In this document: positions 9,837-55,009 of the stretch, in pieces
Position numbering within the stretch: the stretch's first letter is position 1
How the letters are laid out: each line of letters starts with the position of its first letter
DNA from: Tanticharoenia sakaeratensis NBRC 103193
Lineage (GTDB): Bacteria > Pseudomonadota > Alphaproteobacteria > Acetobacterales > Acetobacteraceae
Assembly: GCF_000963885.1 (NCBI RefSeq)
Contig: NZ_BALE01000003.1
Span: 1-64,000, forward strand
DNA length: 64,000 nt
Direction: 5' to 3'
The notes under the pieces: generated by a model
Seen by the model: the letters and a program-made list of their open reading frames with translations, nothing else
Database searches by the model: none
What the model was told of the DNA's origin: nothing
Made by a program: the position numbers and the translations under genes

Positions 9837-11489
9837 ATGATTCGTCTCACAGCGCGCCATTATCTCGCCATCGCTCTGATTGCGTTTGCGACCCTGCTGC
9901 CCGGGCGTGCCAGCCTGCCGCCGCTGGACCGTGATGAGCCACGTTATATGGAGGCGACAGCGCAGATGCTGACGTCCCACGATTTCGTGGACGTCCGCTT
10001 TCTCGACCAGCCACGGTATCTGCAGCCAGCCGGGATCTACTGGCTGGAGGCGGTCTCGGTCGCCGTGCTCAAGGGCGGCCCTGTTCGAACAGCATGGCCA
10101 TATCGGGTTCCGTCCCTGATTGCGGCCACACTTGCCATCACGCTGACCGCCTGGCTCGGCGCTTCTCTGTTCGGGGCGCGTGCCGGGTTGCTGGCAGCGG
10201 GACTGCTGGATGCGTCCACGCTGCTGACAGCCGAAGGCCGGATGGCCACCATCGATTCAACGCTGCTGCTGGCCGTCATGGTCGTGCAGATTGCCTTGTG
10301 GCGTGCCTATCGCGACGGACGTGCCTGGAAGACGACGCCGATCGGATGGGCGCTTGCCTACTGGATCGGTATGGGCTGCGGCATGATGCTGAAGGGCCCG
10401 GTCATCCTGATTCCGGGCCTGCTGACGCCGCTGATGCTGTGGGCCTGGGACCGCGATCGTCGCTGGTGGCACAATCTTCGTCCGGCCTGGGGCTGGCTGT
10501 TGGCGCTGGCTGTCGTTCTGCCGTGGTGCGTAGCGATTGACGTCGTCAGTCATGGAACGTTCTTCTCGCGCGCGGTTGGCACCAATTTTCTCGGGAAGAT
10601 CGGACACGGGCAGCAGGCGCATGGTTCGCCGCCGGGATTTCACCTGCTGGTCTTCGCGATCGCGTTCTGGCCGGGGGCGGCGTTTGCCGCCTGGGCCGCG
10701 CCGGCCGTATGGACGCGGCGCGATCGCCCCGAAGTGCGTTTTCTGCTGTCCTGGATCGTGCCCCACTGGCTTGTGTTCGAACTGATTGCGACGAAGCTGC
10801 CGCACTACGTTCTGCCCACCTATCCGGCGATCGCAATCCTGACGGCGGCAGCACTCTGCACATGGCCGTGGCAGGTCGCGCGGCAACGATGGGCGCGTCT
10901 GCTGATCGGCGTTTATCTGGCTGTCGGAGCAGTGGCCGGACTTGCGTTCTGCGTGGCGGGGCCTGTGTTGCTGTGGCGCATCGAGCACATCATGTCGCCC
11001 CGCGCATTGCTGGCTGTCGTCGGCGCCGTGCCCCTGGTGGTCGCGGTATTCTGGCTGTGGCGGCAACGTGAGGGTGAACGTGCCGCGTGGAGCGCGATTG
11101 CCGCAGCCGTCGTGATCCATACCGGGCTGTTCGTTGCCGTCATTCCGCGACTGCAGACGATCTGGCTGGCGCCTCGAATCGCAACGATGTTCGCCGACTT
11201 CAAGCCATGTCCGAACAGTACGCTCGTATCGACGTCCTTCTCGGAGCCGAGCCTCGTCTTCCTCGTCGGCCAGGGCACCCATCTGCTCGGTCCGGACGCG
11301 GCCGCGACCTATCTCGGTGCCCACAGCCAATGCGCACTCGCGCTCGTCGACCGGCGGGATGGCCCCGCCTTCAGTGCCGCGATGGCCCGCCAGCATCTGA
11401 TGCCCGTGGAGTATGGCCGCATCGTCGGCGTCAATTACTCCAACGGGCATAAGCTCGACCTGGGGCTATATGCGCCAGTTGCGCAATAA
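9837..11489 (+). CDS. Glycosyltransferase family 39 (ArnT-like) membrane protein
   Basis: The 550-residue integral membrane protein has about 12 helices and the GT39/GT83 hallmark LDRDEPRYMEATAQM in the first periplasmic loop, whose acidic residues are catalytic in ArnT. It also has the MLKGPVIL and KLPHYVLPTYPA segments common in this family. It would transfer a sugar from an undecaprenyl-phosphate carrier to lipid A or another envelope acceptor. The start is uncertain: ATG 9837, or GTG 9822 one base after the preceding stop. Its 3' end overlaps the convergent RgpF-like gene by 24 bp. Confidence 0.88.
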   Translation: MIRLTARHYLAIALIAFATLLPGRASLPPLDRDEPRYMEATAQMLTSHDFVDVRFLDQPRYLQPAGIYWLEAVSVAVLKGGPVRTAWPYRVPSLIAATLAITLTAWLGASLFGARAGLLAAGLLDASTLLTAEGRMATIDSTLLLAVMVVQIALWRAYRDGRAWKTTPIGWALAYWIGMGCGMMLKGPVILIPGLLTPLMLWAWDRDRRWWHNLRPAWGWLLALAVVLPWCVAIDVVSHGTFFSRAVGTNFLGKIGHGQQAHGSPPGFHLLVFAIAFWPGAAFAAWAAPAVWTRRDRPEVRFLLSWIVPHWLVFELIATKLPHYVLPTYPAIAILTAAALCTWPWQVARQRWARLLIGVYLAVGAVAGLAFCVAGPVLLWRIEHIMSPRALLAVVGAVPLVVAVFWLWRQREGERAAWSAIAAAVVIHTGLFVAVIPRLQTIWLAPRIATMFADFKPCPNSTLVSTSFSEPSLVFLVGQGTHLLGPDAAATYLGAHSQCALALVDRRDGPAFSAAMARQHLMPVEYGRIVGVNYSNGHKLDLGLYAPVAQ

Positions 11490-50274: not shown

Positions 50275-51852
50275 GTTTTTACGCAACAGATATGGCGCCC
50301 CGCGCCCTGGATCGTTACGCTGGCGACCACCGCATGTCTTTATGCGTCTCCCCTTTATGCCCAGAGCACGTCGACGCCGTCATCGTCCCAGAACCGTGAC
50401 CGGCAGTTTCTGGGACAGGCAACGCACGTCACTCCGGGCACACCCGCCAAGGCTGTATCGGCCCCAACCATTCCCGACATGTCCAACGGTGATCCGTATG
50501 ACCGGATCGGTCCGATGGAGGGCACTCGCATCAGCACGGCAAAACCGCCGCCCGTGCCGGATACTCCGTTCTTTCCGTCCAGTTTCGATGCGTGGCTTCA
50601 TCAGGGCACGATGACCGGTGACTGGGGCGGATTGCGCACGCGGCTGCAGAACGAAGGCATCGCGATTCAGGGGCATTACCTTGAGGACAGCGCGGGCAAT
50701 CCGGTCGGCGGCAAGTCCAAGGACGTCCGGTATGCGCATGAGTTTGGCCTCGGCGCGGATATCAACACCGCCAAGCTGCTGGGCACCGATCTCGGTGTCG
50801 TCCATGCGCTCATCACGGAACGTGCGGGTCTGGGCCTGGGGGCGACGCTGCCGGCACTCGACAGCCCGCAGGAAATCTTCGGTTCCGGCGAGACCGTGCG
50901 TATCACGCGTCTGTCGATCGAAAAGCAGATCACCAAATATGCCGATGTCGAACTCGGTGAGATCAATACCGAAAACGATTTCGGCCAGTCCACGATGCAC
51001 TGGGGCATGAACCTGTATTGCCAGTTCGAATCGAATGCGATCTGCGGCATGCCGCAGGCACTGGCGATCAATTCGGGCTATGGCTATTACCCGACGGCTC
51101 ATCCGGGTGCCTATCTCAAGCTGTATCCCGCCGGGAACGACCGGTATCTGGTGTCGGCCGGTATCTATAACGTCGATCCCGCCATTGCGAATACTCACAA
51201 CGGGTTCCAGCTCGGACTCCATAACTCGACGGGTGTCTACCTGCCATTCCAGCTCGGCTGGCATGGCGGCGGCACGGACTCCTCGGGGACCCTGCCGACC
51301 AACCTGAAAATCGGCGGCTACTGGGACACGTCGGAAGTTGCGAACATGTATTCGCACCTTCAGTCGTTCGAGCCTGCTACGGCGCCGCAGCTCGTCAATC
51401 TGCCGATCGAACAGATCCGCGGTCGTTACGGTGGGTGGTTCGAAGGAGACCAGATGCTGGAGCGCGATGCGGGCGATCCCAATCGTTCCACGGTCGCCTT
51501 CATGTCCATCATCTGGGGTGATCCGCGGACGTCCGAAGCGCCGTACTTCGTCACCGCCGGCATCGTGCGCAAAGGCACGTTCTGGAATCGCCCCCAGGAT
51601 ACGATCAGCCTCGGCGGCAAGATCCTGATCGTGAACCGCCAGTTGACGAACTACGTCGCCGAACTGCAGCAGCAGGGCTTCCGGGGGCTCGTCAAGCCGA
51701 GCGACGAAAACATGCTGGAAGCCAATTACGGCTGGCGTCCGTCGCCGTGGCTGACGGTGCGGCCCGGCGCGCAGTATATCTGGCACCCCGGCGGCACCAA
51801 TCTTTACAAGAATGCCCTGTTGCTGGACTTCGAGTGCGGCATCACGTTCTGA
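50275..51852 (+). CDS. OprB-like carbohydrate porin lacking a canonical start codon
   Basis: The barrel sequence is clear: TGDWGGLRTRLQNEGI, VELGEINTENDFG, and the ending NALLLDFECGITF, as in OprB porins. In frame upstream of the first ATG (50479) there is an intact signal peptide (QIWRPAPWIVTLATTAC and YAQ cleavage site), which is needed for export. The only codons between the TGA at 50251 and this signal are non-canonical. GTT 50275 stands 7 bases after GGGAG and is one base from GTG. ACG 50281 and ATA 50290 are alternatives. Starting at 50479 removes the signal. Confidence 0.78.
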   Translation, partial: VFTQQIWRPAPWIVTLATTACLYASPLYAQSTSTPSSSQNRDRQFLGQATHVTPGTPAKAVSAPTIPDMSNGDPYDRIGPMEGTRISTAKPPPVPDTPFFPSSFDAWLHQGTMTGDWGGLRTRLQNEGIAIQGHYLEDSAGNPVGGKSKDVRYAHEFGLGADINTAKLLGTDLGVVHALITERAGLGLGATLPALDSPQEIFGSGETVRITRLSIEKQITKYADVELGEINTENDFGQSTMHWGMNLYCQFESNAICGMPQALAINSGYGYYPTAHPGAYLKLYPAGNDRYLVSAGIYNVDPAIANTHNGFQLGLHNSTGVYLPFQLGWHGGGTDSSGTLPTNLKIGGYWDTSEVANMYSHLQSFEPATAPQLVNLPIEQIRGRYGGWFEGDQMLERDAGDPNRSTVAFMSIIWGDPRTSEAPYFVTAGIVRKGTFWNRPQDTISLGGKILIVNRQLTNYVAELQQQGFRGLVKPSDENMLEANYGWRPSPWLTVRPGAQYIWHPGGTNLYKNALLLDFECGITF

Positions 51853-51861
51853 TGCCGTTCC

Positions 51862-51884
51862 ATGTCAGGCTTCTTGCCTGACAT
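51862..51884 (+). terminator. Hairpin after first OprB porin
   Basis: A 9-bp perfect stem (51862-51870 with 51876-51884) with a TTCTT loop follows the stop by 9 bp. The region 51885-52124 to the next gene holds nothing recognisable. Confidence 0.6.
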
Positions 51885-52124
51885 CCCGCTTCGGAAATTT
51901 CCAGCGCTCTTTCATGCCGATTACGGCGCTGGTTTCGGGCACTGTCTCGAACGCTCTGCCGGACGGCTCTCTTGAGAGGCGCTCCCACCTCGTACTCGAA
52001 AGCCGTTACGGCAACGCGCGCGGGACAATTCGTCCAGCACGCGGTTGAGGCTTTCGGGTGAGAGCGGGTCTGAAGAGCCGACCTTCCAGACACTCTTCCG
52101 CCCGATTCTCAGGTAAACGCGCGT

Positions 52125-53588
52125 TCAGAGCACCGAAGTGATCTGAACGCCAAGGACAGCAGCGTCATGGAACGTCGTCGTCGCGTCCGGACGCTGGATG
52201 TACTGAAAGTCAGGCTGCACGGCCGTCGCGCGGGCCACGTGCATGCTGTAGAACAGCTCATACGTGTTCTCGTGCGACTGGACGCCGTAGACCGTGCCCC
52301 ACTGGTTCGCGATGTAGGGTTGGCCAAGCGCCTGCGACATTTCCTGCTGCAGTGCCACCGTATGGCTCATGTCGAAGTGCTGCCACATGATGCCCACGGT
52401 ATCGAGCGGCCGCCCCCACGCCTTGCCCGTCTCGATCATGCCGGCCCATGTGTGATCGCGCATCGCCACGATACGTCCGTCGCTATACATCGCGCCGGCC
52501 AGCAGGATGAGACCGTTGGTCTGACCATCGCCGTTGCGGATCAGCATCTGGTCGCCCTGGATCCAAAGGTTGTTCTGTCCGGTGATGTTACGCGCGGGCA
52601 GCCCGCTGAGCTGGTAAGAGCCGCCATACATGTCCGAGTACTGGTCCGGATAGCGCGAGTTATCGTAGGAGTAGCCGAGCTTGTAGTGCCCGACGAGCTT
52701 GTTGCGTCCAAACGACGGGAGCCAGCCGAGCTCGACCGGGGTCGAAAGCTTGCCAAGGCCCGACTGGGCCCAGGACCAGCCCGAAATGCCACCATTGAAG
52801 CTGTGCGGGCTGACGGCGAAGAGCGCACCCATGATGTAGGTGGTCGGCGTCGGCATGACGCGCGCCACCACGCCGAGGTTGCCCGACGGCCAGTCGCGCG
52901 TGCCGGGCGTATATTTGTCCGGCGCGGGATTGCCGCAGATCGCAACATTCATGAAGTCGCAGAACAGCGGGGAGGCGGCAAAGAAGCTGCCGGGCGGGAT
53001 CCAGCCCGCGCTGATGTCGATCCGGTTGTGGTAGAACGCGCTTTCGCCCCACATCGCGACGAGATGCGCCACCACGTTACCGCGCGCGCCATAGATTTCC
53101 TGAACGCCCGCGATCTGGTCGCCGAAATTGCGGCTCACATTGTCGCCGTGGCCGTTGACGATGATCGTGTGGGTCCAGAACGACGGAATGCCGGCAAGCT
53201 TGTCCCAGTCCACGTCCATCTCGACGCCGACCTGGCCTGCGTCCGAATAGGCACGCTGCTTGCCGCCAGTGACGTTGCCGGCGAATTCCTCGTTCACGGC
53301 CGCCAGCAGATGGATGCCATGCTTGAGAAGCCAGGGCTGGATGCCGCCCCAGTCTCCGAACAGATGCTGGCTTCCCATCGGGGCTGCGAAGAACGGGCCC
53401 GGATCGACGATCTGGCGCGCGCTCTGTGCGGCGGTCCCTTCCTGCACGTTGCCGGCCGTTTCGGAAGAGCTTGTCGTGCCGGTCGCATTCGTTCCAGGAC
53501 TGTTGGCGTCCTGGGCATGTGCGGGGTGGCTGGCAAGGCCGAGCAGGAAGACCAAAAGAACGGCCCAGCCTCTTCGAAAAACAGTCAT
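52125..53588 (-). CDS. OprB-family carbohydrate porin
   Basis: The 487-residue protein has a signal peptide (LLVFLLGLASHPAHAQ), a low-complexity Thr/Ser segment, then the OprB start FGDWGGIQPWLLKHGIHL and strands typical of the family. OprB barrels let glucose and related carbohydrates through the outer membrane, which would serve periplasmic sugar oxidation. It is convergent with the other OprB gene (272 bp between). Start ATG 53588; upstream is shared with moaB, transcribed the other way. Confidence 0.88.
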   Translation of the reverse strand: MTVFRRGWAVLLVFLLGLASHPAHAQDANSPGTNATGTTSSSETAGNVQEGTAAQSARQIVDPGPFFAAPMGSQHLFGDWGGIQPWLLKHGIHLLAAVNEEFAGNVTGGKQRAYSDAGQVGVEMDVDWDKLAGIPSFWTHTIIVNGHGDNVSRNFGDQIAGVQEIYGARGNVVAHLVAMWGESAFYHNRIDISAGWIPPGSFFAASPLFCDFMNVAICGNPAPDKYTPGTRDWPSGNLGVVARVMPTPTTYIMGALFAVSPHSFNGGISGWSWAQSGLGKLSTPVELGWLPSFGRNKLVGHYKLGYSYDNSRYPDQYSDMYGGSYQLSGLPARNITGQNNLWIQGDQMLIRNGDGQTNGLILLAGAMYSDGRIVAMRDHTWAGMIETGKAWGRPLDTVGIMWQHFDMSHTVALQQEMSQALGQPYIANQWGTVYGVQSHENTYELFYSMHVARATAVQPDFQYIQRPDATTTFHDAAVLGVQITSVL

Positions 53589-53775
53589 TAGTGGTATCGC
53601 ATCCCGTTGTAATTCCTTTGTTTTCCTGTGGGCCGGCGTCGCCGCGGGCTGACAGGCGCCTTGTCTTCCGCAGGGCAAAGCGCATCAGGCGTCCGGGTGT
53701 TCCATCAGCGTAACATCCACCGCACCGGAACGGCGGGCGATTGACGGACCAGGGGCGGGGTGATCCGATAGGCGT

Positions 53776-54306
53776 ATGAGCGACCCTAACACGCCTGTGC
53801 CTTTTCGTCCGGTGCGGATTGCCGTTCTGACGGTATCCGATACGCGGGATCCCTCAACTGACGCATCAGGCGATATCCTGGCGGCACGGATCACGGATGC
53901 AGGTCATATCCTGGCTGACCGGACGCTGGTGCCCGATGATATCGGTGCGATCACGGGCATTCTGCAGGGCTGGATCGACGACGCGTCGATCGACGTCGTC
54001 ATCAGCACGGGCGGCACCGGGGTCACGGGTCGCGACGTGACGCCGGAAGCATTTGCACGCGTGATCGAAAAGGACATTCCGGGCTTCGGCGAGCTGTTCC
54101 GCATGCTGTCCTATGCGAAGATAGGCACATCGACGATCCAGTCGCGCGCAATGGCAGGCGTCGCCCGCGGCACCTATCTGTTCGCGCTGCCGGGATCGCG
54201 CGGTGCGGTGAAGGACGGTTGGGACGACATCCTGTGCCAACAGCTCGACAGCCGGCACAAGCCCTGCAACTTCGTGGATCTGATGCCGCGCCTGCAGGAG
54301 CGGTGA
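53776..54306 (+). CDS. moaB: Molybdenum cofactor biosynthesis protein B
   Basis: The 176-residue MoaB/MogA-like protein adenylylates molybdopterin or has a related role. Motifs are VLTVSDTRDPSTDASG, the Gly-rich VVISTGGTGVTGRDVTPEA and FALPGSRGAVKDGWDDIL. No other Mo-cofactor gene is in the window. It starts 188 bp from the divergent porin. Confidence 0.9.
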   Translation: MSDPNTPVPFRPVRIAVLTVSDTRDPSTDASGDILAARITDAGHILADRTLVPDDIGAITGILQGWIDDASIDVVISTGGTGVTGRDVTPEAFARVIEKDIPGFGELFRMLSYAKIGTSTIQSRAMAGVARGTYLFALPGSRGAVKDGWDDILCQQLDSRHKPCNFVDLMPRLQER

Positions 54307-54370
54307 CGGCTTGGCACGCGGTGTTGTGCGTGCATGATGGCGGCCGAAACGATTCCAGGGAGCATTCGTC

Positions 54371-55009
54371 TTGGCACAAGACCATCTGCGCGCACGTCTG
54401 CGCACGCTGCTGATCGCCGGCACGGCCGGCCTCATTCCGTCCATGGCGATCATCGCCTCGGCGCCCATGCCGCAGGCCCATGCGGCAGCGTCGAACAATT
54501 CGTCGTTTCGACTGAGCTCGTTCACCGTCAACGGCAACCAGCAGGTTCCGACGGACGCCATCACGTCGGCGCTTCCCTACCATGTCGGTGATGTTCTGAC
54601 GCGCAATCAGATCAACGCGGGCCTGCAGAAGGTCGTCGACGTCTACCAGCAGAAGAACGTCGGTGCGAATTTCAAGACGCGGATGAAGTTCCTGAACAAG
54701 ACCGTCGCCGTCGAGCTCGACATCACGGAGCAGGCGCCCGGCGCGCCGGGCGCCACACAGGTGCAGGCGCTTCTGCTCGACAAGCTGGTGTTCGATGGCA
54801 ACCGCAAGCCGTCAGCAGCGGATCTGACGACGGCCTCCGGTCTGACGGTCGGCCAGACCCTGACCAGCGAACAGGTCAACGCCGCGACCCAGAAGATCTC
54901 TGACTATTACAAGAAGATCGGGATCAGCGCCCAGATCCAGCCGTCTGCCGATTATCCGAACAAGGACAATCACGTCGTGCTGACCTACAAGATCACCGAA
55001 CAGCATTGA
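54371..55009 (+). CDS. Free-standing exported two-POTRA protein
   Basis: The 212-residue protein has a signal peptide (cleavage after AHA near residue 39) and two POTRA-like repeats at about 47-121 and 132-211. Each begins with a FTVNGNQQVPTDAI or LVFDGNRKPSAADL strand-turn-helix and ends with a VELDITE or LTYKITE strand. There is no beta-barrel as in BamA, TamA or FhaC, and the gene ends at residue 212. The start is TTG 54371, after CCAGGGAG about 9 bases upstream. It may be a soluble periplasmic adaptor. Confidence 0.75.
   Translation: MAQDHLRARLRTLLIAGTAGLIPSMAIIASAPMPQAHAAASNNSSFRLSSFTVNGNQQVPTDAITSALPYHVGDVLTRNQINAGLQKVVDVYQQKNVGANFKTRMKFLNKTVAVELDITEQAPGAPGATQVQALLLDKLVFDGNRKPSAADLTTASGLTVGQTLTSEQVNAATQKISDYYKKIGISAQIQPSADYPNKDNHVVLTYKITEQH

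Follow-up and report, generated by a model that had tools for sequence, protein, structure and literature searches.

The window analysed here is a 64,000-nucleotide stretch of the genome of Tanticharoenia sakaeratensis NBRC 103193, in which a gene on the forward strand encodes a short protein with two POTRA domains. The gene, its parts and its nearest upstream neighbours are as follows:

50479..51852, + strand: the other OprB porin gene in the block (Pfam, tree)
52125..53678, - strand: OprB porin gene, a neighbour in several genera (Pfam, locus contexts, tree)
53776..54306, + strand: molybdopterin-binding (MoaB-like) gene, directly upstream (Pfam MoCF_biosynth)
54357..54362, + strand: AGGGAG, a likely ribosome-binding site about 8 nt 5' of the TTG
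54371..55009, + strand: whole double-POTRA gene, 212 aa, TTG start, TGA stop (open reading frame, translation, Pfam)
54371..54484, + strand: signal-peptide-like N-terminus, residues 1-38, ending in AHA (by eye)
54503..54733, + strand: POTRA domain 1, residues 45-121 (AlphaFold2 strands and helices; PF07244 at 54509-54730)
54734..54769, + strand: Ala/Pro-rich linker of 12 aa joining the POTRAs (AlphaFold2 block of low pLDDT, 63)
54770..55003, + strand: POTRA domain 2, residues 134-211 (AlphaFold2; PF07244 at 54782-55000)

The MoCF_biosynth-domain gene at 53776..54306 is presumably MoaB, and is named as such below. The OprB genes at 50479-53678 are convergent, and the genome holds ten OprB matches in all. 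The gene next downstream of the double-POTRA gene encodes a DUF1643 protein (Pfam) and lies on the opposite strand. A promoter scan gave one weak site resembling a sigma-70 promoter (54311-54338), where 0.3 would be expected. The position, strand and content of 54371-55009 agree with the initial annotation, which had described the gene as coding for only a signal and two POTRA repeats: residues 1-38 of the 212 resemble a Sec signal when read by eye, similar N-termini occur in the aligned relatives, and the stop codon follows immediately after the second POTRA. Since the protein contains no Cys, it is not a lipoprotein, and judging by its sequence it is probably secreted to the periplasm.

Among the Pfam models, PF07244 (POTRA) matched two separate stretches of the window protein, with E = 2e-18 and 67.3 bits (cut-off 21.3), and it matched all 21 rows of the family alignment, that is, the window protein and 20 relatives. 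This alignment was drawn from 26 loci; L023 and L031 were left out, and L022, L024 and L030 also stand outside it (contig-end cuts or second copies). The only other model above its cut-off was PF08479 (ShlB-type POTRA), which scored 27.5 bits over the same region, barely above the cut-off of 24 and far more weakly than PF07244. The FtsQ-type POTRA model, PF08478, reached 20.7 bits in the window protein, under its cut-off of 23; the relatives fit it better, 19 of the 21 rows matching at E <= 0.01 (best 2.4e-08); two further Pfam matches were at chance level. Neither the FtsQ C-terminal domain (E <= 10) nor the barrel domain PF01103 was found by Pfam in the window protein, the NCBIfam BamA equivalog TIGR03303 gave 43.2 bits where its cut-off is 297.15, and phmmer against the PDB sequences returned nothing significant (best E = 0.1).

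An AlphaFold2 model built on the 21-row alignment had a mean pLDDT of 84.3 and a pTM of 0.53, with 142 residues at or above 90. It comprises two beta-alpha-alpha-beta-beta units, at residues 45-121 and 134-211, in which most 10-residue blocks have a pLDDT of about 90 or higher, the low values being found in the N-terminus and the linker. The fold and the PF07244 match above its curated cut-off place the protein among the POTRA proteins, and the different fold that the initial annotation had allowed for was not predicted. The top two Foldseek matches were E. coli BamA and its POTRA1-2 tandem, with whole-chain TM-scores of 0.33 and 0.35, and among the 50 structure matches listed these scores were only 0.30-0.39. 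Similarly, VIA-align ranked BamA residues ~24-173 first, with Z values reaching 13.1 and an rmsd of 10.6 across the POTRA pair; the top row (Z 13.1) belongs to a BAM-SurA complex. POTRA4-5 rows (Z at most 11.6) and TamA rows (10.5) came close behind. With the predicted model as query, the structure search does not strongly single out BamA POTRA1-2. When fitted as a single POTRA, residues 134-212 superposed on the BamA POTRA 4c4v at 1.5 A over 75 residues (VIA-align). The Ala/Pro-rich linker is 8-12 aa long in 20 of the 21 family rows (3 aa in L059), compared to 3 aa between POTRA1 and POTRA2 in the BamA of the own genome and likewise 3 aa in each of the six BamA rows listed, and with this greater length the two POTRAs are probably set flexibly.

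Relatives of the protein, which the initial annotation had left to an orthologue search, were found as stand-alone matches in 23 of the 150 genomes of the family sample (own genome included), with open frames that measure 174-391 aa and are in some cases truncated at the end of a contig. In total, 27 of these 150 genomes gave a match, the sole match in the remaining four (G015, G028, G060 and G132) being a BamA-sized frame. When the alignment served as query, matches at E <= 2.3e-52 came from 51 of the 200 genomes of the order sample, again including the own genome, and lay in open frames of 211-404 aa; the next match stood at 1.5e-15. In the class sample of 289 genomes, 49 matched at E <= 1e-9, a threshold that weaker relatives might escape; at this threshold no stand-alone relative was found outside the Acetobacteraceae, all such frames being longer than 750 aa and BamA-sized. 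The holders among the GTDB contigs (18 loci) were Asaia, Swaminathania, Acidomonas, Brytella, Acetobacter, Gluconacetobacter diazotrophicus and Ameyamaea, in a search so narrow that the lack of a genus from this list says nothing; the G. diazotrophicus strain PA1 5 carries the gene at L089. The window protein as a lone query found no relative in the first genome-contig scan, tblastn found no match in the plasmid collection, and the genus-level sample consisted of the own genome alone. The double-POTRA protein thus represents a genuine family, inherited among the acetic acid bacteria and their kin.

Some members depart from the common form. Three genomes have two matches each (L022/L031 in G079, L024/L030 in G080 and L023/L029 in G144), which suggests paralogues, and a divergent subgroup (L055-L058) carries a charged C-terminal tail of 13-21 aa after the second POTRA. 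In five genomes of about 2 Mb from genus g41, short signal-bearing proteins of 135-175 aa contain a single POTRA that is closest to POTRA2 of the family (L094, 4675-5088; L095, 4907-5434; L096; L097; L098); in L095, a Ser/Asn-rich stretch takes the place of POTRA1.

The origin of the two domains was assessed by profile comparison in global mode (21 family rows, 20 BamAs and 14 TamAs) and by a domain tree. The profiles of POTRA1 and POTRA2 of the family scored 112 against each other. POTRA2 scored 89 against BamA POTRA2 (P2), and POTRA1 scored 62 against BamA P2 and 43 against BamA P1, while scores against the TamA POTRAs were at most 35 in either mode. Compared as pairs, the family tandem aligned to BamA P1-P2 with a score of 124, the best of six pairs. 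In the domain tree (169 rows, 81 columns), a quick search from which 5 of the 14 TamA P2 rows (on length), the TamA P1 set and the single POTRA L096 (near-identical to L094) were omitted, the 42 family POTRAs grouped with four single ones in one set (SH-aLRT 96), which joined BamA P2 and P3 at a support of 87; POTRA2 of the family was not a single clade (3 changes).

At the sequence level, kinship points to BamA POTRA2 rather than to the TamA POTRAs. Plain descent from BamA P1-P2 in series was considered and rejected: since the two family POTRAs are closer to each other than POTRA1 is to either BamA P1 or P2, a P2-type domain duplicated in tandem is the better fit. The simplest reading, though not a certain one, would be that one BamA-POTRA2-type domain was copied out and then duplicated.

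With respect to a barrel, 58 loci were inspected: that of the window, 56 further loci with two POTRAs and one with a single POTRA. Both POTRAs were present in 57 of them, L186 having only the second, and at most 19 aa were found C-terminal to the last POTRA; in none of the 58 did the reading frame run on into a barrel, as it might have done in relatives according to the initial annotation. The MoaB-like gene upstream and the opposite-strand DUF1643 gene downstream leave no room for one. A frameshift or assembly break that hides a barrel was rejected in view of the open frame, the opposite-strand neighbour and the like ends of the 58 loci. Only its short length would favour the view that the gene is the remnant of a duplicated bamA in decay, or that a frameshift or mis-assembly conceals its barrel. 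Against this stand the consistent ends, the strand of the next gene, the appearance of the two POTRAs as mutual duplicates and the substitution pattern, and we regard it as extremely improbable. The dN/dS ratios (NG86, mature part), calculated for 131 pairs at 60-98% identity, had a median of 0.22 over the 95 pairs with dS < 1.5, which are not independent of each other; the highest value for a single pair was 0.98 (L051/L054). The gene therefore looks constrained, that is, under purifying selection and not decaying, and the POTRA fold and the lack of a barrel in the 58 loci support the initial view of a soluble, signal-bearing POTRA pair rather than a broken BamA.

Within the own genome, PF07244 also matches an 828-aa frame with five POTRAs (BamA), a 733-aa Omp85 frame with two matches, which we take to be TamA, and, under the cut-off, a 408-aa FtsQ-like frame, presumably FtsQ itself. 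The genome encodes two Omp85 barrel proteins, both located away from 54371-55009, and at least two PF01103 barrels were found in each of the 15 genomes checked (15/15), so that the double-POTRA protein supplements a normal Omp85 set and is no substitute for BamA.

The protein shares with BamA the POTRA fold, PF07244 and a tandem pair, E. coli BamA POTRA1-2 (2v9h, 2qcz) coming first by structure and BamA POTRA2 closest by profile. It differs in having two POTRAs and no barrel where BamA has five and a barrel, in the longer linker, and in that both of its POTRAs resemble BamA P2 more than P1. TamA likewise has POTRA domains, but also a barrel, and the profile scores towards it are low. The TpsB proteins such as FhaC also carry two POTRAs, with the marginal PF08479 match as a possible further likeness; their barrel C-terminal to the two POTRAs is, however, absent from the window protein, in which PF07244 is the strong match. 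With FtsQ/DivIB the protein has in common a POTRA without an outer-membrane barrel and the PF08478 matches, whereas it has two POTRAs, no match to an FtsQ domain and, by eye, a cleavable-looking signal instead of an anchor. A 2014 survey gives FtsQ as the only POTRA protein outside the Omp85 superfamily (PMC4104836); the POTRA proteins of PMC10434195 are TpsB and the two P. aeruginosa proteins of PMC8959810 are named by domain only. Among the papers listed from the open-licence PubMed Central literature, none describes a barrel-less POTRA family, and for POTRA proteins in acetic acid bacteria or their relatives the one listed deals with a BamB (PMC11302035).

The reading we favour, albeit tentatively, is that the pair may be a periplasmic accessory of outer-membrane protein assembly, which would bind SurA or unfolded outer-membrane proteins by beta-augmentation. 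A BamA-POTRA2-type domain would have left its Omp85 context in the Acetobacteraceae, gained a signal peptide and duplicated in tandem, and the free pair would remain soluble in the periplasm. There, its exposed edge strands could bind partners by beta-augmentation, as BamA POTRA1 does with SurA in E. coli. In this way the pair might hold or relay unfolded outer-membrane proteins, for which the abundant OprB porins would be the obvious clients, or it might instead help SurA to dock at BAM. A periplasmic helper is favoured because E. coli BamA POTRA-1 binds SurA via an edge strand by beta-augmentation (PMC11366764), and because free POTRAs should keep such strands. The frequent OprB neighbours described below also count for this reading. 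Against it count the origin of that linkage in a single block, the 30 loci that lack it, the uneven OprB numbers of g31 and g54, the loss of the gene at L173 and the structure search, which does not strongly prefer POTRA1-2. A further point against it is that the known E. coli SurA site lies on POTRA1, while the family is closest to POTRA2. The secretion of the pair, its partner, its client and the direction of its effect are what we infer here, and the chaperone or adaptor role for BAM or TAM proposed at the outset is a plausible suggestion.

An OprB gene lies within 3 kb of the double-POTRA gene in 28 of the 58 loci (and 5-6.5 kb away in two more), which raises the possibility of an assembly factor dedicated to OprB porins and encoded beside its client. 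Two settings are common. In the window type, the domains of which were checked by Pfam in the window, a POT transporter, the OprBs, the POTRA gene, DUF1643, a peroxiredoxin, a transglycosylase and ABC-2 genes occur together; in the other, MoaB and DJ-1 lie beside the double-POTRA gene. Orthologous OprBs adjoin the gene in both of these wider contexts: in a tree of 41 sequences, 12 neighbouring minus-strand OprBs from the two settings fell into one clade (support 100). In genus g31, moreover, the OprB number was 8.0 with the gene (n = 10) and 4.9 without (n = 16), with p = 0.001 uncorrected for relatedness or genome size. On the other hand, genus g54 showed no clear excess (7.2 with the gene, n = 13, against 6.4 without, n = 5; p = 0.39, equally uncorrected), genome size also differs between holders and non-holders (p = 0.03 in g31 and 0.002 in g54), and in one set of the per-genome counts 9 means at least 9. 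In 30 of the 58 loci the gene has no OprB closer than 3 kb, nor was one found in the stretch inspected at L041, L043, L044, L147, L148 and L183 (Asaia, Acidomonas). The linkage may also be passive inheritance; MoaB is linked too (MoaB-like gene at most 2 kb upstream in 18 of the 58 loci, 16 of which have a DJ-1 gene in between), and the single clade of neighbouring OprBs indicates one inherited block and thus no independent evidence for function. The same clade also holds the OprB of the gene-less L173 and two non-neighbouring OprBs. At L173 (G174), the OprB-OprB-DUF1643 block is whole and the POTRA gene is gone, a 150-bp AT-rich gap (11228-11378) containing no credible remnant of it (best tblastn E = 0.21); since both OprBs are retained there, the gene is dispensable in that genome. 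In two other gene-less g31 genomes (L172 and L174) the other block genes are absent as well, which makes them uninformative as empty sites, and the L172 OprBs sit outside the neighbour clade. A role dedicated to OprB is, in light of this, unlikely.

It is somewhat less doubtful that the protein is a periplasmic peptide- or protein-binding scaffold without a part in outer-membrane protein assembly, in which POTRA acts, much like that of FtsQ, simply as a general-purpose binding module, serving for example periplasmic dehydrogenases, peptidoglycan enzymes or polysaccharide export; even so, we consider this rather unlikely. POTRA does occur in FtsQ (PMC4104836), the FtsQ-type model matches most family rows, and genes for an SLT/SPOR lytic transglycosylase and for ABC-2 export lie downstream in the window-type loci. 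The MoaB/DJ-1 loci, however, lack these neighbours, no model matches more strongly than PF07244, and the kinship is to BamA POTRA2, in a comparison that comprised the family, BamA and TamA. The same neighbours bear on the polysaccharide export that had been suggested alongside the BAM/TAM role: only the genes for an ABC-2 transporter, some 3 kb downstream, speak for it, and as they are missing from MoaB/DJ-1 loci such as L047, L049 and L163, it is the weaker option. Finally, the likeness to the docking part of BamA without the inserting part would also suit a decoy role, in which the pair would vie with BamA for SurA or BamB and thereby damp the assembly of the outer membrane, under stress for instance. 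Retention and moderate constraint fit a helper and a decoy alike, and we regard the decoy as improbable. As a working picture of the favoured helper, which is possible rather than probable, the POTRA modules may have been freed from the Omp85 barrel to act in the periplasm, with a flexible tether, as a bivalent chaperone or as an adaptor for SurA/BAM, an invention of the Acetobacteraceae that would have shrunk to a single POTRA in one small-genome genus.

POTRA domains are regarded as the periplasmic arms of Omp85 insertases, and are otherwise placed in FtsQ. If the favoured reading is true, a conserved exported protein consisting of POTRAs only would show this docking module working on its own, and it would offer a natural separation-of-function tool for the partners of POTRA2-type domains. 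Acetic acid bacteria rely on porins and periplasmic oxidation, so that an extra assembly factor in these organisms would be of practical interest.
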